The notes under the pieces: generated by a model
Database searches by the model: none
What the model was told of the DNA's origin: nothing
What the model saw: only the letters and a program-made list of their open reading frames with translations
Shown here: in pieces, positions 4,239 to 55,772 of the stretch
How positions within the stretch are numbered: the stretch's first letter is position 1
Layout: every line of letters begins with the position of its first letter
Assembly: GCA_014323545.1 (NCBI GenBank)
Contig: CP058647.1
Span: forward strand, 1,838,001 to 1,902,000
Reading direction: 5' to 3'
Source of the DNA: Hyphobacterium sp. CCMP332
GTDB lineage: Bacteria > Bacteroidota > Bacteroidia > Cytophagales > CCMP332
Length of the DNA: 64,000 bases
Program-made: the position numbers and the translations under genes

Positions 4239-5540
4239 ATGAGAACATTTACACTTTCATTAATCCTTATATTGGCATTTGCATTAAATGTAAATTCCCA
4301 ATTTATAAGAGGTCAAAAAACCGAAAGGATTTCGGGTTTTAAGACAAAGACTTCAATTAAACCGGTGTCATCTAAAAATGTAATTTTAAAGAGAATGGCA
4401 TTCATGGCGCATCGTATGGATTCTGCAAGAATTTATATTTACGATAGTGTGGGAAATATTGAAGGTAGCCTACTGGCAAGAATCAATTATAGTTTTGATC
4501 ACAAACCTGATGAAATTCAATTATCAGATGATAATCTAATACCTGGATTTGCTTTTTATAGGCTTACTTTTACTTATTTAAACAATGACCAGGAGATTAT
4601 CACAACCCAGTACGAGTACAATGGAATATCCTATCAGGTTACAGACAGAAGTTTATATTATTTTAATTCAAATGGATCAATGGATTCTTTAATTTATGAA
4701 TATGCCGATCAAGGTGGAAGTACATGGATTAAATATTCAAAACGCGCTTTTGATTATACTGGTAATGGACAAATTGACAAGGAAACGGATTTTTACTGGA
4801 ACAATATCTGGGTACCGGATTATAGGACAAGCTATATTTATGCTTTAAATGGGAATTTAGAAAAAACGATTTTTGAATTTCACGACGGGCAGAACTGGAC
4901 TAACAATTTCTATAATCAATACCATTATGGAAGTACAAACTTAGTGGATTCTATTCTTGGTTATTACAAAGACATGTTCGGGGGATCCGATATTCTTGAT
5001 GGTAAAATTGAAATTGAGCATGATCAGAATGGTAACCCCAGCCGCCAGATTTTTGCATATTTTGATGGTCTTAATTACGTGTATGACAGCAGAGAGGAAT
5101 TTGCATACGATTTGAATGCTTTGTTTTCCAATGCGTTATATCCTAATCTGGAAAGTCCATTTTATCAAATGACTCAAAATGAGATTGTAAATCTTCCGGT
5201 TGGAGACACATATTCTTCATTTGATAATGGTTGGAATTTGCATGAGTCCACGATTTATTTTTATAGTCAACAAACTATTTCTTCTATTGCGGATAAAAAT
5301 GCAAAATCGGAGATTCGAATTTATCCAAATCCGGCAAGTGATCTAATCAATATTTACACACCTATTGTGAAATCAAATATGGTATTGGAAATAACCGATG
5401 CACAGGGAAAGCAAATATTAATAGAAGAACTTCACAATAGCTATTCACAGATACAAATAGCAAATTATCAATCGGGAATTTACTTATATCAACTGAGCTC
5501 TGATGAAGGTGTTCAAAAAGGTAAATTCATTAAAAATTAA
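4239..5540 (+). CDS. Secreted protein with type IX secretion C-terminal sorting domain
   Basis: A 433-residue secreted protein of unknown function. The ATG at 4239 was chosen because it begins MRTFTLSLILILAFALNVNSQ, a clean signal peptide; a longer frame from GTG 4182 only adds an unlikely extension lying inside the palindrome and promoter. The body has loosely repeated tyrosine-rich segments with NG/DG turns (for example YYFNSNGSMDSL, YIYALNGNLEKT, FHDGQNWTNN) spaced by about 45 residues, reminiscent of YD-type beta repeats. From about residue 357 it has a type A T9SS domain: RIYPNPASDLINI, then EITDAQGKQI, a GIYLYQL strand and a terminal lysine-rich strand. Expected fate is the cell surface or medium. 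It is transcribed toward the bidirectional terminator at 5565-5601. Confidence 0.8.
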   Translation: MRTFTLSLILILAFALNVNSQFIRGQKTERISGFKTKTSIKPVSSKNVILKRMAFMAHRMDSARIYIYDSVGNIEGSLLARINYSFDHKPDEIQLSDDNLIPGFAFYRLTFTYLNNDQEIITTQYEYNGISYQVTDRSLYYFNSNGSMDSLIYEYADQGGSTWIKYSKRAFDYTGNGQIDKETDFYWNNIWVPDYRTSYIYALNGNLEKTIFEFHDGQNWTNNFYNQYHYGSTNLVDSILGYYKDMFGGSDILDGKIEIEHDQNGNPSRQIFAYFDGLNYVYDSREEFAYDLNALFSNALYPNLESPFYQMTQNEIVNLPVGDTYSSFDNGWNLHESTIYFYSQQTISSIADKNAKSEIRIYPNPASDLINIYTPIVKSNMVLEITDAQGKQILIEELHNSYSQIQIANYQSGIYLYQLSSDEGVQKGKFIKN

Positions 5541-5564
5541 TTAAGTCATTTATTAGAAAGACAT

Positions 5565-5601
5565 AAAAAAAGCCTTGTCAGATTATGACAAGGCTTTTTT
5601 T
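5565..5601. terminator. Bidirectional intrinsic terminator
   Basis: Perfect 16-bp stem: left arm 5565-5580 (seven A then gccttgtca) and right arm 5586-5601 (tgacaaggc then seven T), with a 5-nt loop gatta. Because one side is an A-run and the other a T-run, it can end transcripts from both strands. It lies between the stop codons of the convergent genes ending at 5540 (+) and 5617 (-). Confidence 0.93.
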
Positions 5602-5616
5602 GTGATATGTATTTTT

Positions 5617-6231
5617 CTAGAAAGCTATTCCAAAGTTTACCGCGAAACGAACTCCAACACCGGAATCTTCCCCTTCAAAAGATATAGATGTGTTCGGATC
5701 ATTAGCATCCGGAGTGAAATCAGTGGAAACAGATTTATATTGAGGGCCCAGTTGAATATCAATTGCAACCGCATCGGATATTAAAACCTGATAACCGATT
5801 AAAAGACCACCACCAATTGCATTTCTGCTTAACTCTGCTTTGGCATTAATAGTGTTTAAGTTTTGGTCAAGTGTTGTGTATTCTACAGAATTCGTTACGG
5901 ATCTGTATCGAATAAATGCACCTCCATAAACGCCTTTAGGTGCTTCGGAAAAATAATACCTCACTTCCGGGATAATGATAAACCCATTATCTTTTTGAGT
6001 GTTAGTGGCAGTTCCGAAACTCAAATCCCATTCTCTGGAAATAAGCCCGGCTGCAAGTTGTACAGATAAATTTTCATTTAAAGCACGTTCATATGACATT
6101 TGATACTGTCCGACAATTAAGCCAAACAAGTTAAGTTTCACGACATTATCTTTTACCTGTGCCTTTGAATTGTTGGTAGTTAAAAACAATAGAAGAACAG
6201 GTAGCACGGAAATTAGAATAATTCTTTTCAT
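5617..6231 (-). CDS. Small outer-membrane beta-barrel protein
   Basis: A 204-residue exported protein beginning MKRIILISVLPVLLLFL with cleavage likely after SKAQ. The mature part is made of alternating amphipathic strands (LNLFGLIVGQYQMSYER, GFIIIPEVRYYF, YGGAFIRYRS, GGGLLIGYQV, AIDIQLGPQYK) and ends in an aromatic residue (VNFGIAF), the usual signature of an outer-membrane barrel. It resembles DUF3575-like Bacteroidota proteins, but I do not recognise a specific family and no function can be assigned. It is divergent from another small barrel gene at 6376, sharing a 144-bp AT-rich intergenic region. Confidence 0.72.
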   Translation of the reverse strand: MKRIILISVLPVLLLFLTTNNSKAQVKDNVVKLNLFGLIVGQYQMSYERALNENLSVQLAAGLISREWDLSFGTATNTQKDNGFIIIPEVRYYFSEAPKGVYGGAFIRYRSVTNSVEYTTLDQNLNTINAKAELSRNAIGGGLLIGYQVLISDAVAIDIQLGPQYKSVSTDFTPDANDPNTSISFEGEDSGVGVRFAVNFGIAF

Positions 6232-6375
6232 AGTTTTTTTAGTAGATCAATACCTAAATATATAATTATTAATGTATATATAAATGACTTGAGTATTATA
6301 TTCTGAATAATTTGAAGCTCAAAACAAAATACTTATCATTATAGTATTGATTTATTAGATAATCAAATACTCATC

Positions 6376-6921
6376 ATGAAACTATTACTATCAGCTTTAA
6401 TTTTCTTTTTTATGTCCAATGCAGTATTAGCACAAAGCGCAGGAGAAATGCGAGTAAGTGCTGGATTAGCCATAGGCACAGAAGCCGGCCTGGATAACAA
6501 TGGAGGAAAGGCTCTGGGTCTGGGAATTAATATTGGTGGCGAATATTTCATTGTAGACAATATTTCTGCATCCCCGAGTTTTACATACTTCTTTGAGTCA
6601 AATGTAGGAACATTGCCCAACCGCTTTTCATTGCGTTTGAATACTTTGAATATTGACGGGCGATATTATCTCATGGATTCACCGGTAGAGTTTTACGGCA
6701 TTGCAGGAATATCAATTGCAAGTGCAAGAGCGGAAAGCAATGTCAGCATTTTTGGTGTAAATCAGGTTAGTTCCAGTTCTGATTCTGAAGTAGGACTAAA
6801 TTTTGGAATTGGTGCCAATCTTCCCGTCACTGATGAAATTCAGGGAAATGCACAAATGGTATATAACACTCCGCTCGAGCAGCTCATTATTAATTTAGGT
6901 GTAGTATATCGCATTTTCTAA
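6376..6921 (+). CDS. Small outer-membrane beta-barrel protein
   Basis: A 181-residue protein with signal peptide MKLLLSALIFFFMSNAVLAQ and a mature part of about eight short amphipathic strands with glycine-rich turns (ALGLGINIGGEYF, FSLRLNTLNIDGRYY, VEFYGIAGISIASA, VGLNFGIGANLP), ending LGVVYRIF. It resembles porin-family/OmpA-like eight-strand barrels of Bacteroidota without the OmpA periplasmic domain. Function is unknown. It is divergent from the barrel gene at 5617-6231, and their joint placement suggests related envelope roles, but the two do not look like close paralogues. The 22-bp gap to the convergent transporter holds only a weak AT-rich hairpin. Confidence 0.72.
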   Translation: MKLLLSALIFFFMSNAVLAQSAGEMRVSAGLAIGTEAGLDNNGGKALGLGINIGGEYFIVDNISASPSFTYFFESNVGTLPNRFSLRLNTLNIDGRYYLMDSPVEFYGIAGISIASARAESNVSIFGVNQVSSSSDSEVGLNFGIGANLPVTDEIQGNAQMVYNTPLEQLIINLGVVYRIF

Positions 6922-6943
6922 ATAAAACCGCTCTTGTTTTGTC

Positions 6944-8335
6944 TTAAACAAAAGCTAAATCAAGCCCGAGGAATTTGGTAAGCATGGTTATCAGAAAAAT
7001 TGTTCCTAAAATTATCGGGCAAATTACGGTAATTGAAAAATTCACTAATTTCTGAATAAGTGATCCTTCATAGCCCGGATTGCCTTGCGCAATTTCTTCA
7101 GAAAGACTTTTCGTCTTCCATTTAAAGGCAACAAAAAGAGAAAGCATAAATCCTCCTAAAGGAAGACCTATATTGCTAAAAATATCCTCGATCAAATCAA
7201 GAAAAGATTTATTTGAACCCTCGTAATGCATAAAATTGGTGAGGCCATTTACTGCGCCAACAGAAAGCATACTGGGTATTCCAATCAGAAAAATCAAAAA
7301 AGCCAATCCAAATACAACCTTTTTACGTGGCCAGTTTTTTTCATCTACAATAAAGGCTACGGGAACTTCCAAGAGAGAAATGGTAGAGGTTAAAGCCGCA
7401 AAACATAGAAGAAGAAAAAATCCACCGCCAATTAATCTTCCCATAATTGGCCCCATTTCCTGAAAAATTCCGGGCAATGCCACAAATACCAAACCTGGAC
7501 CCGCACTCGGAGCCTGGCCCTGTGAAAATACCAAAGGAAAAATGAGCAATCCAGCCATGAAAGCCACCAAGCCATCTACCAAGGTAACCGTAATGGCTGA
7601 AGAGATAATATTTTCCTTTTTACTGATATAGGATCCATAAGTAATTAATGCTCCCATTCCCAGCGAGAGGGAAAAGAAGGATTGCCCCATAGCTGTATAT
7701 ATTGTTCGCAAACTAATATCGGAGAAATTGGGAACCAGATAAAACTTTGCTCCTTGTAAAGCACCAGGCAAGGTGAGTGAATATATGATCAAAGTGGCCA
7801 GCAATATTAAAAGAATGGGCATTAGTATCTGTGAAGCTTTTTCAATGCCTTTTTGCACTCCCTGTATTACCACAATTGCAGTAAATATCATAAATACAAA
7901 AGAGTAAATCATGTTGTCGCTTACATCAGATACATATGCACCGAAATAAGACCCAAAATTTTCAACTTCAAGGAGGTTGCCGAAAATAATTTGATAGAAA
8001 TACCCAAAGGCCCAACCTGCTACCACATTGTAAAATGACAGAATCATGACACCACTTATAATTCCGAACAGGCCAACAATGCCCCACTTTCGGTTGCCGA
8101 GTTGTCTATAGCTACCGTATGGATCTTTCTGAGCAGCACGACCAATTGCTATTTCACCGACCATTATTGGAAATCCAATGACCAGCATACAGGCCAGGTA
8201 GACAAACAAAAATGCCGCACCCCCATTTTCACCCGCTTCGTAAGGGAATTTCCATATATTGCCGAGCCCTACCGCAGATCCTGCAGCCGCTGCAATAAAT
8301 CCAATTTTTGAACTAAATCCTCCTCTAGCTGCCAT
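6944..8335 (-). CDS. Sodium-dependent transporter, NSS (SNF) family
   Basis: A 463-residue multi-pass inner-membrane protein of the neurotransmitter:sodium symporter family. The TM1 signature GSAVGLGNIWKFPY is at about 19-32, forming the sodium- and substrate-binding unwound helix, followed by GGAAFLFVYL. Further features are GQSFFSLSLGMGALITYGSY in TM6 and repeated hydrophobic segments consistent with 11-12 helices and a LeuT fold. Family members take up amino acids, but the specific substrate cannot be read from sequence. The start at MAARGGFSSKIGF matches the family N-terminus. It is divergent from the hypothetical gene at 8442 and appears monocistronic. Confidence 0.93.
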   Translation of the reverse strand: MAARGGFSSKIGFIAAAAGSAVGLGNIWKFPYEAGENGGAAFLFVYLACMLVIGFPIMVGEIAIGRAAQKDPYGSYRQLGNRKWGIVGLFGIISGVMILSFYNVVAGWAFGYFYQIIFGNLLEVENFGSYFGAYVSDVSDNMIYSFVFMIFTAIVVIQGVQKGIEKASQILMPILLILLATLIIYSLTLPGALQGAKFYLVPNFSDISLRTIYTAMGQSFFSLSLGMGALITYGSYISKKENIISSAITVTLVDGLVAFMAGLLIFPLVFSQGQAPSAGPGLVFVALPGIFQEMGPIMGRLIGGGFFLLLCFAALTSTISLLEVPVAFIVDEKNWPRKKVVFGLAFLIFLIGIPSMLSVGAVNGLTNFMHYEGSNKSFLDLIEDIFSNIGLPLGGFMLSLFVAFKWKTKSLSEEIAQGNPGYEGSLIQKLVNFSITVICPIILGTIFLITMLTKFLGLDLAFV

Positions 8336-8441
8336 ACTAATTTTTTTTAATGCGGAAATTTAGAAAAATGAAAACAAATTCAAGAAAATGACAATTGTAA
8401 ATTAATTCAGAACTTAGATGTATACTTCCAGTTAATAAGGT

Positions 8442-9041
8442 ATGAGCTTTTTCAATAAAATTTATAATCAGGTATTTAACAAAAAAACCAATCCTGAATA
8501 CAACGGTAAAAAATTCCTGGTTCAGGAAATGTATTCCCTTGGTGAACAAGAGCAAAATGAATACAAATTATGGTTAAAAAAGGAAAGCACAATAGCGCAG
8601 ATCAACAAAATTTACAGCGGAATTAAGCACAAAAAAGCCGGTCTTAGCGAACAGAATGAACGCTACTCGATCTATGAATCACTGCAAAGCAATGGATTTT
8701 ATGTATTGTGTGAGAATTTTTTGGATTCCAAAAACACCAGGTTTGTACTTGAAGTTTTAAAGGATCAATTGTTAGAGCTGGGTTATTATCAAAACCACAG
8801 TTCAAGAGATATCTTCGAGGAAAACGATAATCTAAAAACAAAGATTACCTATTACCTCAAGCCAAAATTCAGTAATTACGATTTACCACTAGAACAAAAA
8901 TTTGGAAATATACATTTGGAATGCTTGTTTATTAACGATAAGCCTGATTATATAAAGCTTTTGGCCAATGTCTATTCAGATAGAAACTATAAAGAAGCGG
9001 ATTCATTTGATGAGCTTTTATCCGCTTTAAGCTATCATTAG
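8442..9041 (+). CDS. Hypothetical protein, unrecognised
   Basis: A 199-residue soluble protein with no signal peptide or membrane segment. The N-terminus MSFFNKIYNQVFNKKTNPEYNGKK is basic; the middle has a FYVLCENFLDSKNTRFVLEVLKDQL-type strand-helix pattern, and the C-terminal part (IHLECLFINDKPDYIKLLANVYSDRN) looks like beta strands of a small alpha/beta domain. I do not recognise the family. Its last bases overlap the stop codon of the convergent lplA gene within a TTAG tetranucleotide. The coding potential is supported by the frame filling the space between transporter and lplA and by its ordinary residue composition. Confidence 0.7.
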   Translation: MSFFNKIYNQVFNKKTNPEYNGKKFLVQEMYSLGEQEQNEYKLWLKKESTIAQINKIYSGIKHKKAGLSEQNERYSIYESLQSNGFYVLCENFLDSKNTRFVLEVLKDQLLELGYYQNHSSRDIFEENDNLKTKITYYLKPKFSNYDLPLEQKFGNIHLECLFINDKPDYIKLLANVYSDRNYKEADSFDELLSALSYH

Positions 9042-10030
9042 AGCTTAAGCTCCATAAGCAAATCCAGCAGTTTTTCCTTTATATGGCTATTTTGTTTTTC
9101 AATCTTTTGAAACAGAGAATCGTGCTTGAAATATTCGTCGAGTAAAAGCGTATTGAACATCTCAGTAAGTTGGGAATTTTCTGGAGCTACATTGATTTTA
9201 TTGACTTTCCCCTTTTCCAAATCAAAATGCACGAGAAAGGGTTTGTTTTCAAATGAAATGGAAAGGTCTATGCTTGTTTTTGGAGAGTTTCCAAAGACCC
9301 AATCTTCTTGGTCATATTTAGACTTTACTTTTTTATTAATTTCTGAAATTGATTTCTTATCAAAACCAAAGATCATCTGGGCCTTGAAATGCGACTTCAA
9401 ATGATCTAAAAAGAAAAGGATAAATTCATCCACTGAAATATCCAATCCATGTTGGTTGATATTTGTTACCGGCACCTTTTTAGATTGAATAGCAGATGAA
9501 CTCACTTTGTTCCAAGGGTGATTTAAGGCTACACTCACTTTTTGTAAATCAGCATTAAACAGCAAAGTAGCGTGGCTTATCATTTGATCACCGGAAAGGT
9601 GCTGGGCATTACCGGAAATTTTTAAGTTGTCGATTAAAATATCGTTGCGATCATTGCTGTGCGCTTTAATCTTTAGGGCATTGAGAAATTCTATTATTGG
9701 TTTATTGAAAACGCCAAAGTTTGAAACCCATTCAGATTTTCGTGGAGTGAAATATGAGAAGTTTATATTGCCGAGATCGTGATAGACAGTACCACCACCG
9801 GAAACACGTTTATTTATTGAAATATCATTTTCTCTGCAAAATCTAAGATTGGCTTCAGCCCAAATGCTTTGATTTTTACCACAAACAATCGAAGGTTTAT
9901 TTCTGTAAACAAAGATTAAATTCTTTTTGAAATCTTTTTTTTGATTCTCAAGTAAAAACTCCTCTGTAGCCAGATTGAAAGTGGGATCAAAGATTTTGTC
10001 TTGATAAATAATTAGAAAATCGCCTTTCAA
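9038..10030 (-). CDS. lplA: Lipoate--protein ligase
   Basis: Attaches free lipoate to the lipoyl domains of 2-oxoacid dehydrogenases and the glycine cleavage H protein through a lipoyl-AMP intermediate. The 330-residue product has the catalytic domain motif RVSGGGTVYHDLGN at about 75-88, which binds the lipoyl-adenylate, and the DNLKISGNAQ segment with the conserved lysine at about 153; a C-terminal accessory domain follows. With lipB at the left edge, the organism appears to have both salvage and de novo lipoylation. It lies 4 bp after the stop of yaaA and is probably cotranscribed. The stop overlaps that of the convergent gene ending at 9041. Confidence 0.92.
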   Translation of the reverse strand: MKGDFLIIYQDKIFDPTFNLATEEFLLENQKKDFKKNLIFVYRNKPSIVCGKNQSIWAEANLRFCRENDISINKRVSGGGTVYHDLGNINFSYFTPRKSEWVSNFGVFNKPIIEFLNALKIKAHSNDRNDILIDNLKISGNAQHLSGDQMISHATLLFNADLQKVSVALNHPWNKVSSSAIQSKKVPVTNINQHGLDISVDEFILFFLDHLKSHFKAQMIFGFDKKSISEINKKVKSKYDQEDWVFGNSPKTSIDLSISFENKPFLVHFDLEKGKVNKINVAPENSQLTEMFNTLLLDEYFKHDSLFQKIEKQNSHIKEKLLDLLMELKL

Positions 10031-10034
10031 GCCA

Positions 10035-10802
10035 TCAATCTCTTAAAAACACTATTTTATTTTCAGAGCTTTCTTTTTCAGAATAATAATAACCATCTCT
10101 ATCAAAGCTTTTGATATCTTCGATGGTATTTATTTTATTATCTATGATATATCTGGCCATTTGGCCTCTGGTTTTCTTTGCGAAGAAACTTAAAACCTTA
10201 TACTCTCCATTTTTAAAATCCTTAAAGTCTGCTTTTACGATTTTTGCCTTTATCTTCTTGCTGTCTACAGCATTAAAATATTCATTGGATGCAATATTTA
10301 ACAATTCCAAAGAGCCACTATTTTCTATGGCCTCATTGAGTTTTTTATAAAGTTTGTCTTTCCAGAACTCATATAAATTATTTCTACGACCAACTTTCAG
10401 ATCTGTACCCATTTCCAGTCGATACGGTCTGATTAAATCAAGTGGTTTAAGTAATCCGTGAAGACCCGATAAAATTCTCAAATGATTTTGAGCAAAGCTC
10501 AAATCTTCGGGATTCAAAGTTTCCGCTTCCAAGCCAAGATATACATCACCTTTAAAGGCCATTAAAGCTTGTTTAGAAGTACCCGTGTCAAATTCAGGCT
10601 CCCAGTCCTGATAGCGTTCGTAGTTTAATTCAACAAGACTTTTGCTGATGTCCATCAAAAGTCCGATTTTCTTCTTTGAAGTTTTTTTCAATCGGGCCAT
10701 TATTTTACCTGACTCATCTACGAAATCAGGCTTGGTATATTCCTTAGTACTTGTCTGGCTTTCAAAATCCAGGGTTTTTGCCGGAGAAATAACGCTAATC
10801 AT
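10035..10802 (-). CDS. yaaA: YaaA family peroxide-stress protein (DUF328)
   Basis: A 255-residue cytoplasmic protein of normal length for the YaaA family. In E. coli, YaaA limits intracellular free iron and DNA damage during peroxide stress and is under OxyR control; a DNA-binding helix-hairpin-helix fold has been described for the family. The characteristic N-terminus MISVISPAKTLDF, the central LRILSGLHGLLKPLDLIRPYRLEMGT and the C-terminal FFAKKTRGQMARYI are all present. It is the first gene of a two-gene unit with lplA and divergent from rnd across 72 bp. No OxyR-like site was recognised. Confidence 0.92.
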   Translation of the reverse strand: MISVISPAKTLDFESQTSTKEYTKPDFVDESGKIMARLKKTSKKKIGLLMDISKSLVELNYERYQDWEPEFDTGTSKQALMAFKGDVYLGLEAETLNPEDLSFAQNHLRILSGLHGLLKPLDLIRPYRLEMGTDLKVGRRNNLYEFWKDKLYKKLNEAIENSGSLELLNIASNEYFNAVDSKKIKAKIVKADFKDFKNGEYKVLSFFAKKTRGQMARYIIDNKINTIEDIKSFDRDGYYYSEKESSENKIVFLRD

Positions 10803-48605: not shown

Positions 48606-51600
48606 ATGAAATCAATTACTACTCTTTTTAAAACTAGCTTTTTTTTAGTTTTTTCGCTATTGAGCTTTAGCACATTCGCTCAGCAGAGATACGATGTTCA
48701 AACTTCGGGAGCTTCGGCCTTTATTCCTTCAGCCCTCAATATAAATGTTGGTGATACGGTAGTTTGGACAAATACCGGAGGGAGCCATAATGTTAATGGT
48801 ACGCAGGCAACTTATCCTTTAAACCCTGAAAGTTTTGGAGGTTTTGCTGTTTCTGGAAGTGGTTCAGCAAACTGGCCATTTACGCATGTTTTTACAATCC
48901 CCGGTTCCTACGATTACAGATGTGATCCTCATGTCGGGAATGGAATGGCCGGAACAATTCAGGTTAATGCAGTTTCGACCGCTTGTTCTGATCTTTATTT
49001 TTCAGAGTATCTTGAGGGTGCGTCTAATAATAAGGCACTCGAAATCTACAATCCAACAAACGCAGTTGTAAACCTAAGCGACTATTCTGTTCTCAGAGAT
49101 AATAATGGGGGCACTACTAACACCGATACATTTCAGATGGATGGGAGTTTAGCTCCCGGTGAAGTGTATGTCATTGCAAATCCTAGTGCGGCAACGGAAA
49201 TACTCAATGTGGCAGATACTACAAGTTCTTCAACTTTTTACAACGGAGATGATGCTTTGCGTTTATTGAATAATAGCACAGGCCAAATAATTGATGTAAT
49301 AGGTGTATATGGCATTGATCCAGGATCAAGTTGGACTGTAAATGGTATAAATGGCGTGGCTGGAGCAACCAATGAAAATGATTTAGTGAGAGACCCTTCT
49401 GTTAATTCAGGAGATACCTCATGGACTAATGTTGTTTCCAACCAATGGTATGTATTACCAAGAGAAAATTTTAACAATCTCGGAATTCACAATGCACAGG
49501 TTTGTGGTAGTTCTATCCCCGCTTATTTGATAGAACAGGTAAAAGGCCTGGATTCCAACCTTTCGCCTGATTCTCTTGGAGTTCAGGCTCAATTAACAGG
49601 AATAGTACACAATCCGGATCAGGGTTTTAATTCCTCAGAGTTTGCTATGCAGGATGGAACCGCTGGAATTTGGGTTACTGGTGCTGACCCCATACCCGGT
49701 TATCCTAGCGGAACGGCTGAAGGTGATATTATAAGAGTTTTTGGAACTGTTGCCTTTAATAATGGGGTAACCCGATTTTCTGCGGACTCTATCAATTTAA
49801 TTGGAAACACCAATTTGTATACGGCAGAGAATACTGATACTTTGAATGAATACACTGAAGGTCGATATGTTAAACTGGATTCTGTTAGAATTATAAACAA
49901 TACTCAGGATTCATTTGATATTACCGGAAGTGGAAATAACTATACAATTGTTACACTGCAATCTGATACATTTACTTTAAGAGTAGACAGGGATTACGAA
50001 TTGGATTTTGAAGGAAATCCGGTACCAACCGGACTATTTAATGTAACCGGAGTTGGATCTCAATTTGATTTCTCTGCACCACATGATGCCGGATATCAAA
50101 TTTTCCCATCAAGATATTCCGATTTGGAAATTCTCACTGTATCCGGAGATGTAATTAGTTTCTCTACAGCTGCTGATAATGTAAATGAAGATGGAGGTTT
50201 TTACCAAATAATTATTACAACAAGTGATACTCTAAGTTCTCCAGCCACTGTAGATGTAGTTAACACAGGGAATGGTTCAGCGGTGCTGGGTGCTGATTTT
50301 ACATTTAATGATACTACCCTGAATTTTTCGAATACCGCAATTGATTCCTTTATTCTCGATGTAACCATTATTGACAATGCACTTGTCAATTCGGATAAAA
50401 CAGTTGAATTTGCTTTGAGAAATATTTCCGGAGCACTTTACGGGCTGGATACATTATTTACTTTGACCATTGTAAATGATGATGTCCCAACCTATGATAT
50501 AGGAACCATAAGAGGGAATGATAATTTAGGTGGAACCACAAATGTTGGAGTTGCAGATTCACTGGGTGTAGTTTGTCGGGTATATGCAATTGTAACTACA
50601 CCGGATATTGGAGGTAGTAATAGAAGCGTGACCTTGCAGGATGCTACGGGAGGCATATCAATTTTCCAACCGGGTAGTGCAAACCCACCGGTATTGAATG
50701 TAGGAGACAGCGTTGAAATTGTTGGTCAGGTTGGACAGTTCAATGGCTTGTCACAATTTACTAACAGCACCGTAATTAATGTTATATCTTCTGGAAATGC
50801 GCTTCCGGCACCTATGGTTGTGGATTCTCTTGGGGAATTTACAGAATCTAAATTGTTGCAAATGAACAACATGAGTTTTGTTGATCCTGCAATTTGGACA
50901 GCTTCTGCCGGAGGTTCTTCATTCAATATAGACATCACAAATGGTATAGATACTTTTGTTTTAAGAGTTGACAGCGATCTACCTGTTCATAGTCAGACTA
51001 CACCACCGGCTGCACCTTTTGATTTAATTTGTTTTGGTGGTCAGTTTGATGGATCTGACCCCTACACTAGTGGATACCAGGTTTTTGCAATTGATTCAGC
51101 GAGCTTTATGCCGGTCATAGGTCCTGGTTTGCCTAGCTACACAATCGGTGATGTAATTGGTATTAATGCAAGTGGTGTAGCGGATTCCGCAGGAACGGAG
51201 TGTAAATTAACAGGAGTGGCATATGGAGATAACTTCAGAGCTGCTGCCGGAGGCCTGGAATTCACGCTGATTGATCCTAACAATAATGATGATGGAATTG
51301 CTGTATTCTCTTCAACAGGATTGGGCTACACTTTGACTGAAGGCGATGAATTACGTGTAATTGGTACCATTGATCAGGTATTTGGATTAACACGTATAGT
51401 TGCGGATTCAATTGTGGTAGTATCTACAGGAAACACTTTAAAATCTCCATCTGTTGTTATAACACTTAATGAATTCTCCGAGTCCAATTTGGTTCAATTG
51501 CAAAATGTTGAGTATCTATCGGAGGGCAACTGGACAAATTCCGGTGCAAGCTTTGATGTAAGGTTCTTCAATGCAAGCGATACCTTTACTATACGAATTG

Positions 51601-52004
51601 ACAACGATTGTGACCTTTATGGATCTACGGAACCTAACGGTTTGTACAATGTGACTGGCCTCGGAGGTCAATTAGACCTTAGCACACCATTTGATTCTGA
51701 TTATCTGTTGCTACCAAGAAGATCTTCTGATTTGGATTTGGTCAGTTCAATAGCTAATCAGCTAAATACTGATAATCTGAAAGTTTATCCCAATCCTTCT
51801 AATGGCCAAATTACCATCGCAGGTATTTCTAAAGCGGGAAGTGAAGTTCAGGTTATAGATTTATTAGGTAAGGTTATCTTTTCAGAAAGATCAAAAGACA
51901 GTGTGCTTAATTTGAATCTTGAAAGTTTGAAAAGTGGTCAATACATTATTAGAATTTCAAATGATTCCGAATTGTACAGATCGATTATCGTGATCACCGA
52001 TTAA
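48606..52004 (+). CDS. Secreted multidomain protein: cupredoxin, lamin-tail, OB-like and Calx-beta-like domains with T9SS sorting domain
   Basis: A 1,132-residue secreted protein. After signal peptide MKSITTLFKTSFFLVFSLLS it has a plastocyanin/azurin-like domain (about 27-122) with a complete type 1 copper ligand set H61, C106, H109, M114. Next is a lamin-tail domain (about 127-240: DLYFSEYLEGASNNKALEIYN, GDDALRLLN). Three related OB-like units follow (each with AQLTGIV or CKLTGVA, then FAMQDGTAGIWV, GDxIRVFGTV and TLNEYTEGRYVKL), and a Calx-beta-like region lies near 515-630. A type A T9SS domain ends it (KVYPNPSNGQITIAG). Nuclease-linked families often contain such LTD and OB parts, but no nuclease motif is visible. 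Transcription ends at the terminator at 52026. Confidence 0.85.
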   Translation: MKSITTLFKTSFFLVFSLLSFSTFAQQRYDVQTSGASAFIPSALNINVGDTVVWTNTGGSHNVNGTQATYPLNPESFGGFAVSGSGSANWPFTHVFTIPGSYDYRCDPHVGNGMAGTIQVNAVSTACSDLYFSEYLEGASNNKALEIYNPTNAVVNLSDYSVLRDNNGGTTNTDTFQMDGSLAPGEVYVIANPSAATEILNVADTTSSSTFYNGDDALRLLNNSTGQIIDVIGVYGIDPGSSWTVNGINGVAGATNENDLVRDPSVNSGDTSWTNVVSNQWYVLPRENFNNLGIHNAQVCGSSIPAYLIEQVKGLDSNLSPDSLGVQAQLTGIVHNPDQGFNSSEFAMQDGTAGIWVTGADPIPGYPSGTAEGDIIRVFGTVAFNNGVTRFSADSINLIGNTNLYTAENTDTLNEYTEGRYVKLDSVRIINNTQDSFDITGSGNNYTIVTLQSDTFTLRVDRDYELDFEGNPVPTGLFNVTGVGSQFDFSAPHDAGYQIFPSRYSDLEILTVSGDVISFSTAADNVNEDGGFYQIIITTSDTLSSPATVDVVNTGNGSAVLGADFTFNDTTLNFSNTAIDSFILDVTIIDNALVNSDKTVEFALRNISGALYGLDTLFTLTIVNDDVPTYDIGTIRGNDNLGGTTNVGVADSLGVVCRVYAIVTTPDIGGSNRSVTLQDATGGISIFQPGSANPPVLNVGDSVEIVGQVGQFNGLSQFTNSTVINVISSGNALPAPMVVDSLGEFTESKLLQMNNMSFVDPAIWTASAGGSSFNIDITNGIDTFVLRVDSDLPVHSQTTPPAAPFDLICFGGQFDGSDPYTSGYQVFAIDSASFMPVIGPGLPSYTIGDVIGINASGVADSAGTECKLTGVAYGDNFRAAAGGLEFTLIDPNNNDDGIAVFSSTGLGYTLTEGDELRVIGTIDQVFGLTRIVADSIVVVSTGNTLKSPSVVITLNEFSESNLVQLQNVEYLSEGNWTNSGASFDVRFFNASDTFTIRIDNDCDLYGSTEPNGLYNVTGLGGQLDLSTPFDSDYLLLPRRSSDLDLVSSIANQLNTDNLKVYPNPSNGQITIAGISKAGSEVQVIDLLGKVIFSERSKDSVLNLNLESLKSGQYIIRISNDSELYRSIIVITD

Positions 52005-52058: not shown

Positions 52059-55000
52059 CTAGAATAAAAAGCCAAGCCTTACAAAGAGAGATTGATCGCC
52101 GCCATTTCCAAATGAATAATCGGCACTTAAAACGGCCATATCGAAAGGTGCAAGCCAAACTCCAAATCCGTAACCACGGTGCCAATCATTAGTATTCTTA
52201 AATTTTTCAATTTCATTGCTGCTGTAAACCCTAGTGACATCTGTATCATCATCTGACCATACTCTGCCAATATCATGAAGAAGCAAAACCCCCAAATCAC
52301 TAATAAGAAATTCATTTTGTATAGTGAAAAGTCTGAATCTGAGCTCCGAATTCTGATAAAAACTATATTCTCCTCGAAAACGATTTCTTCTGAACCCTCT
52401 TAATTTCTTTAATCCACCAATACTCGGTTGAAGAAAAAAGGGCGCTTTTCCTATAATTGCATCTCCACCAGCCCTAAGAGCAAGTACTGTTTTAAATCTA
52501 TGACTTAGTGTAAAGAAAAATGACTGGTCGGCACTCAAGAGCACCGAATTTTCATTTCCATTTTTGACATCATAGAAATAATTGCTTTTCAGATTCAATA
52601 AAACTCCTCTTTCGGCAAATTTCTTATCATTTCGCGAGTCGAACTGATATTCTAGATATGGACCCGCAAATCTGAAATCTCTTAATAGGTCATCAGTTGT
52701 ACTATCGTTATTTAAATCCAAAATAAATCGGGGGTCGTCGTCAAGATCTTCGTTTATCTCCGATTTGATATTTGCACGCTGATAATTCAGGCCAAAATTA
52801 AAATGATGTTTTTGATTTCTTGAATCTCCCTGAAACCCAATTTTTAGCTTTTCAGTATCAAATCGCACTCGGTAATATTGATTGTCTTCATCCAGGCGCT
52901 CCTCACTGAGCAGAGAATTATTACCTAATCCATAAAAAAATGTACTAAAACTTGGTGTTGAAATTAAGGCCTCAATGTTTAGGTCAAGTTTACCTGCTAC
53001 ATCGGTGAAAATACCGCGGTAGTTCACATTATAATTGGCTGATTTCGGGGCTATATTTCCCAATACGCTATGCTGGGTTTTGAATGGTTCTTTTCTAAAT
53101 CCGTGGGTTGTATAAATAGGGCCACCACCTAAATAAATACCATCATCAGGGTTGTAATTAATATAAACGAAAGGCAACAATTTATTATACATAAATGCTC
53201 TTCGGTTATATTCATTTACTTCATCTCTATTGGCAGTTTTAATTTTTGTCTCAGCGCTCTTTTCGATTTTAGTACTTTTCTTTTTGTCGTAGACAATAGT
53301 TTTTTTACTCCATCCTTTTACTTTGGAACTATCCCGGATTTTGTCTTTTCCGCCCCCTCCAATGATTCTTACTTTTATTCCTTTATTTGCATTTCCTTTT
53401 AAATTGAATTCATCTTTACCTTTTAGTCCATAAAGTCGTATCTCTTTTGTAATCCCAAATACAAATTCTCTTTCGTAAAGCTTATCCTTTTCATTTCTCG
53501 ATTTTTTACCAACTTCATAAACCTCGACTAGTGTATTTCCATTTTCCAATCTTCGGACCTCAAAACGATTCGCTTTGTTGGTACCCAAAACATTGACGGT
53601 TTTAGACAGAAAATTGTGATATTTTTCAGCATAGATTTCCAAATCATCCCTTCTACGCTTTAATTTTTCTATTATTTGATCACCTCTTATGTCATAAATT
53701 TCTTTAGGTAAATCTTTAATTCCAGCCTCTATGACTTGATCACTAAGTTTTTGTTGTAATGTATCCGCAGAAGCAATCCAGTCGCTTAAATCAGGTTCTG
53801 TAATAAAATACCGGTCAAAATATCTTGCATTAAAACTGAGGCCATTTACATCGCGAATTTCTGACTCGAAACCCTGAAATTTTGGAATACCCCATTTTCT
53901 GGATGCGAGATTTAATAATAAGCCGTCTGAATAAAAAAATGCCTGATCCCTATCTCTGGGAATAGGCCTGTAGAATTTGTGTTCATCATCTACCTTAAAT
54001 TCTGCCCATCTCCATTGATCGTCATGTCTGTCCCAATCGCCCAACCACATATCAAAAAGTCGCGATTTCACCACCCATTTCTGATCGATTTGATGTTTCG
54101 CAGATTTTTGGGTTTTTTCCACGATATCAAAGGTGCTTTCAATATCCCTTGGACTGCCAAAGCTATGTACGTCTCTTCTTTCATGTGCGGGCCGTTCTTC
54201 ATACAAATACAAGCCATTGGCAAAATCAAATTTGTAATCTCCCAAACGAGGGTCATCATTTAAATAAACCAATTTTGGATTGGTATGATAAACATTAGCA
54301 GCATCGGCCAGTTTTGGAACGGCAAAAGCAGCATATGGGTGAGAAGCGGAAATTTGATCATTAATAATTTCAGCAAATATTGTACCTCTTATTTCGGCAG
54401 GAACGGCATTTTCCGGATATTTTTTTATAGATCGCAATACATATTGTTTCTTGTCTGTGGTTTCCAGACGTAAAGAGCGTGTTTGCATACCCCCGCCTTT
54501 TTTAACAATTTCAAGTCCGCCAAATTCTTTACCCCAGTTAAACACAGGCACCTCTTTAATTTCAGTAACCCATTCTTTACGGTAATTTAAGCCCATTAAG
54601 CCAGGTCTTTTTTTATTGGCTTTTTTTAAATCTTTATCTGCTGAAGCGATTACCTTTTTATTCTCATAGTCGCTGTATTCCTTTTTTATTGTTACTGTAT
54701 CTTTGGGTTTGGCGGGAAATATACCTTTTTCAAATAATTTCCGAAAAGAAGAATGCAGTTCAATTCTTAAACTGTGATCAGTCCCGTAAATGACTTTTGC
54801 ATAGCCATTGGAAATTGAATTAAAACCTTCATCTGATTTGAAATTGCTGTAAGATGATCCGCTCAATGACCCTATTATTACCTGTTTGAGGTTTTCTATT
54901 GTTCTGTAATCAAGATGATCTTCGTTTGCTGAAATCAATAATAATTCCTGTGATTTGGATAACGTATTGCTAAGATAATTTCTAAAAAACCTACTTTTGA

Positions 55001-55772
55001 TATTACTCAAATCACTCGGATTTCCAAGCAATTTTCGATAAGCTATATAAAAACTACCAAGAAAAGGCAGTGGTATATAATTGCTTTGGTTTTTGACTGA
55101 AAAAGGGAAAATATGGTGCTTCAGTTTAAACTTTCCTCCTACGGGCCCGGACGATGCTATCGGATTTATTGCTGAGAAAACAACCCGTTTATTTGCATTC
55201 CGTTTTAAAATTTCCTCGATGGCAAGAAGAAAGTCAACTTTTCTGGTATATGAACAGCCCTGATCTAGTTTTGGAACGTCGAAATCATTTAAGAGCCAAT
55301 AGTCATTTATTAAAACCAGGGTTAAATTTTCATCAATATTAAGTTCATAGGGCCCGGGGCAGGCATTATCGGCTAACAAATAGTTTTGACCTTCGAGTGT
55401 TTCAGCAATTTCTGAATTTAATCTATCTATTGTTTTACTGGAATTTGAGTTATTACGGTCCCATTCTTCAAAACCCGGGATAAATACATAATTAATGCTT
55501 TCACTATGAGGTAAATCATTAAGAAAGCCCATTAATTTATCATCATCTTCACCCTCCTCAGAATCTATTCTGTGATAATCTCCTAAAAAAACTAAAGTCT
55601 TGGGATGAGAAGATAGAGCCAGGTCTTCAATTAGCTTAGAAAAGGCATTTTGATTTATAGAATCATTTTGATAAACACCTGAAACGAAATAGAATTCTTG
55701 CTTAATTTCCTGAGAATATAATTCAGGGTCGACAAACAATAAGCTTAATATGGTTAAAATTAAAAGTTTCAA
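52059..55772 (-). CDS. Outer-membrane fusion: phosphoesterase-like domain, atypical-kinase-like domain, BamA/TamA-like barrel
   Basis: A 1,237-residue exported protein. After a signal peptide (about 1-20), residues 25-300 resemble the calcineurin-like phosphoesterase part of a Bacteroidota metallophosphoesterase/BamA family, but ligands are mostly missing: FLGDYHRID keeps D65, IPGFEEWD stands where GNHE/D is expected. Residues 420-660 have a glycine-rich turn (KKGGGMQTRSLRLET), a strand with lysine (YVLRSIKK), a DMWLGDWDRHDDQW loop (571-587) and PIPRDRDQAFF (603-613), resembling atypical kinases of the CotH/Fam20/HipA type. Residues from about 860 on form a surface-antigen barrel ending YSFGNGGDQSLFVRLGFLF. 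The first two domains would be periplasmic. Function is unknown. Confidence 0.72.
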   Translation of the reverse strand: MKLLILTILSLLFVDPELYSQEIKQEFYFVSGVYQNDSINQNAFSKLIEDLALSSHPKTLVFLGDYHRIDSEEGEDDDKLMGFLNDLPHSESINYVFIPGFEEWDRNNSNSSKTIDRLNSEIAETLEGQNYLLADNACPGPYELNIDENLTLVLINDYWLLNDFDVPKLDQGCSYTRKVDFLLAIEEILKRNANKRVVFSAINPIASSGPVGGKFKLKHHIFPFSVKNQSNYIPLPFLGSFYIAYRKLLGNPSDLSNIKSRFFRNYLSNTLSKSQELLLISANEDHLDYRTIENLKQVIIGSLSGSSYSNFKSDEGFNSISNGYAKVIYGTDHSLRIELHSSFRKLFEKGIFPAKPKDTVTIKKEYSDYENKKVIASADKDLKKANKKRPGLMGLNYRKEWVTEIKEVPVFNWGKEFGGLEIVKKGGGMQTRSLRLETTDKKQYVLRSIKKYPENAVPAEIRGTIFAEIINDQISASHPYAAFAVPKLADAANVYHTNPKLVYLNDDPRLGDYKFDFANGLYLYEERPAHERRDVHSFGSPRDIESTFDIVEKTQKSAKHQIDQKWVVKSRLFDMWLGDWDRHDDQWRWAEFKVDDEHKFYRPIPRDRDQAFFYSDGLLLNLASRKWGIPKFQGFESEIRDVNGLSFNARYFDRYFITEPDLSDWIASADTLQQKLSDQVIEAGIKDLPKEIYDIRGDQIIEKLKRRRDDLEIYAEKYHNFLSKTVNVLGTNKANRFEVRRLENGNTLVEVYEVGKKSRNEKDKLYEREFVFGITKEIRLYGLKGKDEFNLKGNANKGIKVRIIGGGGKDKIRDSSKVKGWSKKTIVYDKKKSTKIEKSAETKIKTANRDEVNEYNRRAFMYNKLLPFVYINYNPDDGIYLGGGPIYTTHGFRKEPFKTQHSVLGNIAPKSANYNVNYRGIFTDVAGKLDLNIEALISTPSFSTFFYGLGNNSLLSEERLDEDNQYYRVRFDTEKLKIGFQGDSRNQKHHFNFGLNYQRANIKSEINEDLDDDPRFILDLNNDSTTDDLLRDFRFAGPYLEYQFDSRNDKKFAERGVLLNLKSNYFYDVKNGNENSVLLSADQSFFFTLSHRFKTVLALRAGGDAIIGKAPFFLQPSIGGLKKLRGFRRNRFRGEYSFYQNSELRFRLFTIQNEFLISDLGVLLLHDIGRVWSDDDTDVTRVYSSNEIEKFKNTNDWHRGYGFGVWLAPFDMAVLSADYSFGNGGDQSLFVRLGFLF

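Follow-up and report, generated by a model that had tools for sequence, protein, structure and literature searches.

The gene analyzed here raises a simple question: what would a kinase-like domain be doing in an outer-membrane protein, when the periplasm has little ATP? It lies in a 64,000-nucleotide stretch of Hyphobacterium sp. CCMP332 DNA, referred to below as the window, and a first-pass annotation had picked out kinase-like motifs in residues 420-660 of its product and proposed their fusion to a BamA-like barrel.

Gene and domain architecture

The gene is present in a single copy in the 3.3-Mb genome, and residue k of its 1237-amino acid product starts at position 55772-3(k-1). An export signal is followed by a phosphatase-like domain, a kinase-fold domain, a β-rich bridge, and an Omp85 barrel, with the following borders.

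52059..55772, minus strand: whole gene, TTG start, 1237 amino acids (open reading frame and translation)
55710..55772, minus strand: predicted N-terminal export signal, residues 1-21 (hydrophobic N terminus)
54738..55703, minus strand: calcineurin-like metallophosphoesterase fold with its metal motifs lost, residues 24-345 (alignment with relatives)
53592..54563, minus strand: atypical kinase-fold domain, residues ~404-727 (AlphaFold2 model; Foldseek and VIA matches)
53184..53591, minus strand: β-rich bridge between kinase domain and barrel, residues 728-863 (strand pattern, full model)
52062..53183, minus strand: 16-stranded Omp85 barrel, residues 864-1237 (PF01103, E 2.8e-12; 16 long strands in the model)

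The region of residues 420-660 was located correctly on the DNA by the first-pass annotation, which gave no strand, and it is real but too short, as the fold match extends over residues ~404-727. All of the strings that it quoted are present: GGGMQTRSL at residues 426-434, YVLRSIKK ending at K451, LGDWDRHDDQW containing D581 and H583, and PRDRDQAF containing D607 and D609.

The Omp85 barrel is the only part of the 1237-amino acid protein matched by Pfam (residues 946-1221), and the same is true of NCBIfam. The model of residues 38-1237 (pLDDT 85, pTM 0.81) contains 16 long strands, and its barrel is matched structurally by TamA (Z 25.2) and BamA (Z 24.8), such that profile and strand number together place the protein among the Omp85 family and uphold the proposed fusion to a BamA-like barrel. 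The bridge occupies the place taken by POTRA domains in other Omp85 proteins; the Pfam scan of the whole protein found no POTRA match.

A hydrophobic core at the N terminus was found by a simple script in 136 of 145 relatives, 30 of them with a lipobox, and the other nine are mostly truncated records. The domain is therefore regularly exported. The N termini of Omp85 proteins are periplasmic in known cases, and from the export signals and this usual topology the kinase domain is most likely to lie outside the cytoplasm, in the periplasm, although it may be exposed at the cell surface, as proposed for PlpD.

No RNA features or tRNAs were found within the window. The convergent neighbor (48606-52004, plus strand) encodes a secreted protein that combines plastocyanin-like, lamin-tail, OB-fold-like, and Calx-β-like domains and has a sorting tail for type IX secretion.

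Distribution and domain builds

A class-wide scan revealed full-length relatives at 30-40% identity, and when the domain alignment was used to scan the phylum, 112 of 296 sampled Bacteroidota genomes proved to contain the domain. The same alignment gave at least 591 candidate stretches in a scan of named genomes, where all of the 80 matches listed are from Bacteroidota or from genomes labeled Rhodothermales or Chlorobiota. A scan of the genome collection with a single full-length protein as query returned no match, which, in view of those candidates, reflects a problem with the search pattern.

Among 145 non-redundant members, 107 combine phosphatase, kinase, and barrel, 33 have kinase and barrel or kinase and bridge, and 5 consist of the kinase domain alone. 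Two genomes, both from one family, encode the three parts separately, in genes that lie side by side. At one of these loci, L190, a lipoprotein comprising kinase domain and bridge (5051-6685) is followed by a lipoprotein phosphatase (6702-7910) and a 395-residue Omp85 barrel (7910-9094); the other (L189, 2241-6193) has the same layout. These split operons confirm the domain borders and indicate that the three parts belong together, and they also offer separate kinase, phosphatase, and barrel proteins for work at the bench.

Two further arrangements were observed. Two or three barrel-less lipoproteins made up of kinase domain and bridge stand side by side at L191 (4636-7975) and L192 (4629-9648). 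Four loci (L185-L188) encode kinase-only proteins of ~425 residues that have a membrane anchor at the N terminus and end, at the C terminus, in a conserved CF[ED]C motif.

A kinase fold in the middle domain

An AlphaFold2 model of residues 385-735, built with 30 family sequences, has a pLDDT of 89.9 and a pTM of 0.90 and adopts the two-lobed fold of the protein-kinase-like (PKL) superfamily: the best 50 rows from Foldseek and the best 50 from VIA are all protein kinases, lipid kinases, or kinase-like proteins, in agreement with the fold that had been proposed from the motifs. The seven top Foldseek matches in the PDB are all to CtkA of H. pylori (E 3.1e-7 to 2e-5), after which come HipA, YihE, Rio2, COQ8A, PI4K-IIα, and Golgi casein kinase, while Fam20C is a weak fold match (4kqb, E 1.4e-3). 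VIA-align places PI4K-IIα highest (Z 14.7, rmsd 4.8, 268 residues aligned), with CotH (Z 14.4, rmsd 4.1, 254 aligned), CtkA (Z 13.2, rmsd 5.3, 246 aligned), mTOR (Z 12.6), actin-fragmin kinase (Z 11.5), and HipA (Z 11.2) below it. The TM-scores are moderate (0.42-0.51 versus CtkA), which makes the domain a distant relative that stands outside the CtkA, CotH, HipA, and PI4K families.

Comparison of sequences gives little of this. No Pfam or NCBIfam model recognizes the domain, phmmer found no match for it in the PDB, and in 30 members there was no match to PF08757 (CotH, E up to 10), PF07804 (HipA_C), PF06702 (Fam20C), or the PI3_PI4_kinase model of Pfam, the first two being without a match in the window genome also. 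Alignment of the family profile with those of CotH (E 0.36) and HipA (E 0.33) by hhalign was no better than with reversed or unrelated control profiles (0.15-0.9). The best match in a profile search of the PDB (177,635 sequences) is again CtkA, weak (E 0.14) but with DRH aligned on DRH. Matches to HDAC6 and YaaH in that search were rejected as due to chance. The likeness to CotH, Fam20, HipA, and PI4K suggested by the first-pass annotation consequently stands at the level of fold, if weakly for Fam20C, and fails in Pfam and in hhalign comparison with CotH and HipA. The relationship would have been missed by sequence methods alone and emerges from fold comparison, helped by the weak profile match to CtkA.

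Active-site residues

Conservation was counted over 143 non-redundant relatives (142 or 140 at some columns). Across the relatives, the domain has a mean pairwise identity of ~43%, against which the conservation of the motifs is far beyond chance. The positions concerned are as follows.

54471..54497, minus strand: glycine-rich loop GGGMQTRSL, residues 426-434, between the β1 and β2 strands of the model
54420..54434, minus strand: Arg at the β3-lysine position, with K451, residues 447-451; R447 belongs to strand 3 of the model
54357..54359, minus strand: D472, a possible αC acid, in the first long helix (helix 81-92 of the model)
54192..54200, minus strand: EER, residues 525-527, following the hinge-position strand (model strand 136-142)
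54006..54041, minus strand: catalytic loop GDWDRHDDQWRW, residues 578-589, with D581 and with Q586 at D+5; aligns with the DRH of CtkA
53937..53960, minus strand: metal site PRDRDQAF, residues 605-612, with D607 and D609

Several hallmarks of the PKL superfamily are retained. Each glycine of GGG (residues 426-428) is kept in 138-140 of 142 relatives, as expected of the glycine-rich loop; the catalytic-loop aspartate, D581, is kept in 138 of 143, and in the weak profile match it falls opposite D155 of CtkA; and either D607 (142/143) or D609 (140/143) could supply the metal-binding aspartate of DFG type. H583 is conserved in 138 of 143, such that the DRH and DRD motifs are indeed conserved in homologues, as had been predicted. 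Other highly conserved positions are D472 (141/142), E525 (138/140), and four residues that are invariant in all 143 relatives, namely R571, D574, D579, and G617.

Two hallmarks are altered. The “strand lysine” read from YVLRSIKK in the first-pass annotation is a conserved residue, K451 (140/142), but the β3 position itself, where the superfamily has lysine, is occupied, four residues earlier, by R447 (140 of 142 relatives; the other two have Lys). Similarly, the spacing from D581 to residue 586 is that of HRDxxxxN, but with Gln in 138 of 143 relatives in place of the metal-binding Asn, which is found in 4. As Arg-447 and Gln-586 are variations shared by the whole family, they point to an enzyme that is atypical rather than dead. 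The family does contain natural kinase-dead members, since two relatives (L033 and L034) are without D581, the glycine-rich loop, and K451. Furthermore, Ser replaces D581 in one of the tandem copies at each of L191 and L192, where an active kinase is possibly accompanied by a pseudokinase partner.

A putative envelope phosphotransferase

The explanation that we favor, and hold to be reasonably probable, is that the middle domain truly belongs to the PKL fold, as an atypical form like those of CtkA, HipA, CotH, and PI4K-II, and that it operates outside the cytoplasm at the center of a metallophosphoesterase-kinase-Omp85 envelope enzyme and moves phosphoryl groups onto an envelope substrate. A phosphate donor would probably be held by the glycine-rich loop, R447/K451, and D607/D609, and D581 would serve in transfer of the phosphoryl group onto a protein, lipid, or glycan of the envelope. 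In most relatives, the adjoining phosphatase domain would then remove or process the phosphate, whereas the window member would represent the transferase half alone of an envelope phosphotransferase-phosphatase pair. With Arg at the β3 position and Gln at D+5, the handling of ATP is perhaps non-standard.

Were this to hold, phosphorylation would occur in a compartment poor in ATP, the bacterial envelope, by means of an enzyme anchored in the outer membrane and found in more than one-third of the sampled Bacteroidota genomes, and it would put a name to a missing enzyme for the phosphorylated envelope proteins, lipids, or glycans of that phylum.

The same residues might instead serve a kinase fold put to other chemistry, in which AMP, an amino acid, or some other group is transferred or a phosphorylated ligand is bound. 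SelO and SidJ share the fold and have non-phosphotransfer activities of this kind. That Arg replaces the β3 lysine and Gln the metal-binding Asn as conserved variations, not as decay, fits such a change of activity, as does the lack of an ATP supply in the periplasm; the catalytic and metal-binding aspartates, however, are kept nearly without exception, which is what phosphotransfer predicts. We consider a change of chemistry unlikely, while taking it seriously as the first alternative to a phosphotransferase.

Gene neighborhood and a possible link to polyphosphate

Clustering of the flanks of 101 loci revealed recurrent neighbors: an HD-PycTM protein at 54 loci, a class III cyclase at 39, an SdiA-regulated/phytase-like propeller lipoprotein at 31, a GAF protein at 17, the polyphosphate kinase PPK1 at 15, PAP2 at 11, and a histidine phosphatase at 10, with SixA-like and extracytoplasmic histidine phosphatases among further neighbors. 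Of 20 genomes in which the PycTM gene is single-copy, 18 have it no more than 15 kb from the kinase gene (0.16 expected). For PPK1, a distance of at most 15 kb was seen in 25 of 75 genomes (0.8 expected) and one of at most 8 kb in 13 (0.45 expected), although such Poisson figures overstate significance because the genomes are related and about a dozen of the 25 belong to a single family, f85. The PPK1 linkage nonetheless spans about nine GTDB families with differing gene orders. Two genomes, G190 and G060, carry a pair of kinase paralogues, both of them accompanied at a distance of 2-5 kb by a separate PPK1 paralogue; in either genome, one of the two loci has a Ppx/GppA gene between the kinase gene and PPK1. 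Taken together, the flanks (L105-L184 and L205-L210) possibly delineate a polyphosphate and nucleotide-signaling gene cluster of Bacteroidota, and the linkage to PPK1, Ppx, HD-PycTM, and cyclase genes would tie the family to both processes.

In the window genome, PPK1, HD-PycTM, and propeller genes occur together at 3.20 Mb (7455-9551, 9529-10794, and 10867-11760 of L205). This cluster contains no kinase-barrel gene, which in relatives comes after the propeller gene; instead the gene is at 1.89 Mb, away from the PPK1 locus, and so seems to have moved away. The relocation seems to have occurred in the same lineage as the death of the phosphatase described below.

From this neighborhood, polyphosphate can reasonably be proposed as donor or substrate, and as donor it would answer the puzzle of periplasmic ATP. 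A stronger form, in which the enzyme would use polyphosphate or pyrophosphate as donor, or would make, bind, or break down polyphosphate outside the cytoplasm in concert with its phosphatase domain and the neighboring cytoplasmic enzymes, we regard as rather doubtful. It draws on the proximity of PPK1, well above expectation, on the paired paralogues with Ppx/GppA, and on the SixA-like and histidine phosphatase neighbors. However, co-regulation during phosphate stress, rather than a common chemistry, may account for the linkage, and around half of the 25 genomes represent synteny inherited within one family. Moreover, PPK1 is itself cytoplasmic, we know of no polyphosphate exporter here, and the window gene lies apart from the PPK1 locus. 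Similarly something of a long shot is a widespread outer-membrane kinase that gets round the lack of periplasmic ATP by drawing on polyphosphate or some other high-energy phosphate as donor, or that synthesizes or breaks down polyphosphate of the envelope, with kinase, phosphatase, and transport barrel united in one chain.

Loss of the phosphatase site

Neither this gene neighborhood nor the decayed phosphatase at the N terminus featured in the first-pass annotation. Relatives match PF00149 (E 4.7e-12 for L002) and keep the motifs GDxG, GDN, GNHDW, HHP, and GHxH, whereas the N-terminal domain of the window protein has no PF00149 match. At the metal motifs it has SGVY, GDYH, GFEEW, INP, and ANEDH where relatives have GDAG, GDN, GNHDW, HHP, and GHEH. 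The aspartate of GD is thus the only metal residue left (GDFENND versus DDNHHHH), and the five motifs that characterize PF00149 are not retained as a set. Judged from these substitutions, the phosphatase domain of the window protein is catalytically dead, and it probably now has a structural or substrate-binding role only.

This is not an isolated event. Of 102 three-part members tested, the phosphatase site is intact in 75 and lost in 25, and mapping of the losses onto the kinase-domain tree requires eight changes, at least five of them forced by well-supported branches. All 25 members that have lost the phosphatase keep the kinase residues; the lack of a single kinase-site loss among them indicates that selection keeps the kinase-like site where the phosphatase has gone. 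In all-against-all comparison, conservation is highest in the kinase domain (43% identity; phosphatase part 37%, barrel 33%), and between the window protein and its relatives the values are 47% for the kinase domain, 31% for the barrel, and 25% for the phosphatase part.

These data bear on the suggestion that the window protein is a pseudokinase, with a fold kept as a scaffold to plug or regulate the barrel and with neither domain catalytic. The dead phosphatase of the same protein and the existence of kinase-dead relatives (L033 and L034) lend it some color, but every motif residue of the kinase-like site is kept in the window protein, and its kinase domain has remained nearer to the family than its phosphatase domain has, so we judge this to be improbable. 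Least credible, indeed close to eliminated, is a chance resemblance of motifs without a kinase fold, which could appeal to the lack of a Pfam, NCBIfam, or significant profile-profile match but is contradicted by the AlphaFold2 model and the fold searches.

Relation to known systems

We return, then, to a putative phosphotransferase of the envelope and to the systems that it resembles. CtkA (PDB 3akj, 3akk, and 3akl) has D-R-H in its catalytic loop followed by Trp at D+6, as in the window domain, but it is a free-standing protein without phosphatase domain or barrel, it shares ~12% identity, and it has Asn at D+5 where Gln is found here. The spore-coat kinase CotH of Bacillus (PDB 5jd9 and 5jda; PF08757) is likewise an atypical kinase of extracytoplasmic type, although none of the 30 members scanned matched PF08757 and profile comparison was not significant. 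HipA and HipT (PF07804) have a similar glycine-rich loop and a D-x4-[N/Q] catalytic loop, but HipA kinases are cytoplasmic enzymes of toxin-antitoxin systems, unlike the exported window protein, and PI4K type IIα (PDB 4yc4 and 4pla) is a eukaryotic lipid kinase with 9% identity to the window domain.

On the side of the barrel, the patatin-type Omp85 protein PlpD, of type Vd secretion, also carries an enzyme domain N-terminal to an Omp85 barrel (PMC4104836), but its enzyme is a different one and a POTRA domain is present. The Bacteroidota BAM complex (PMC12611786) was considered as a home for the family and rejected, as the subunits named there differ from it and neither kinase nor phosphatase is mentioned. 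The open-access literature yielded no paper on an Omp85 protein joined to a kinase domain, a result that cannot prove absence. The closest description is that of the “Metallo” subfamily of Omp85 proteins (Heinz and Lithgow 2014, PMC4104836), in which the barrel is preceded by an N-terminal PF00149 domain, labeled a metalloprotease, and no kinase is mentioned. Contrary to that label, PF00149 is the calcineurin-like phosphoesterase family, and the “Metallo” subfamily is probably the kinase-fold barrel family itself. If so, the picture of a barrel joined to a metalloprotease is to be corrected to one of a new PKL-fold family set in an unusual Omp85 architecture, the kinase part of which seems to have been overlooked.
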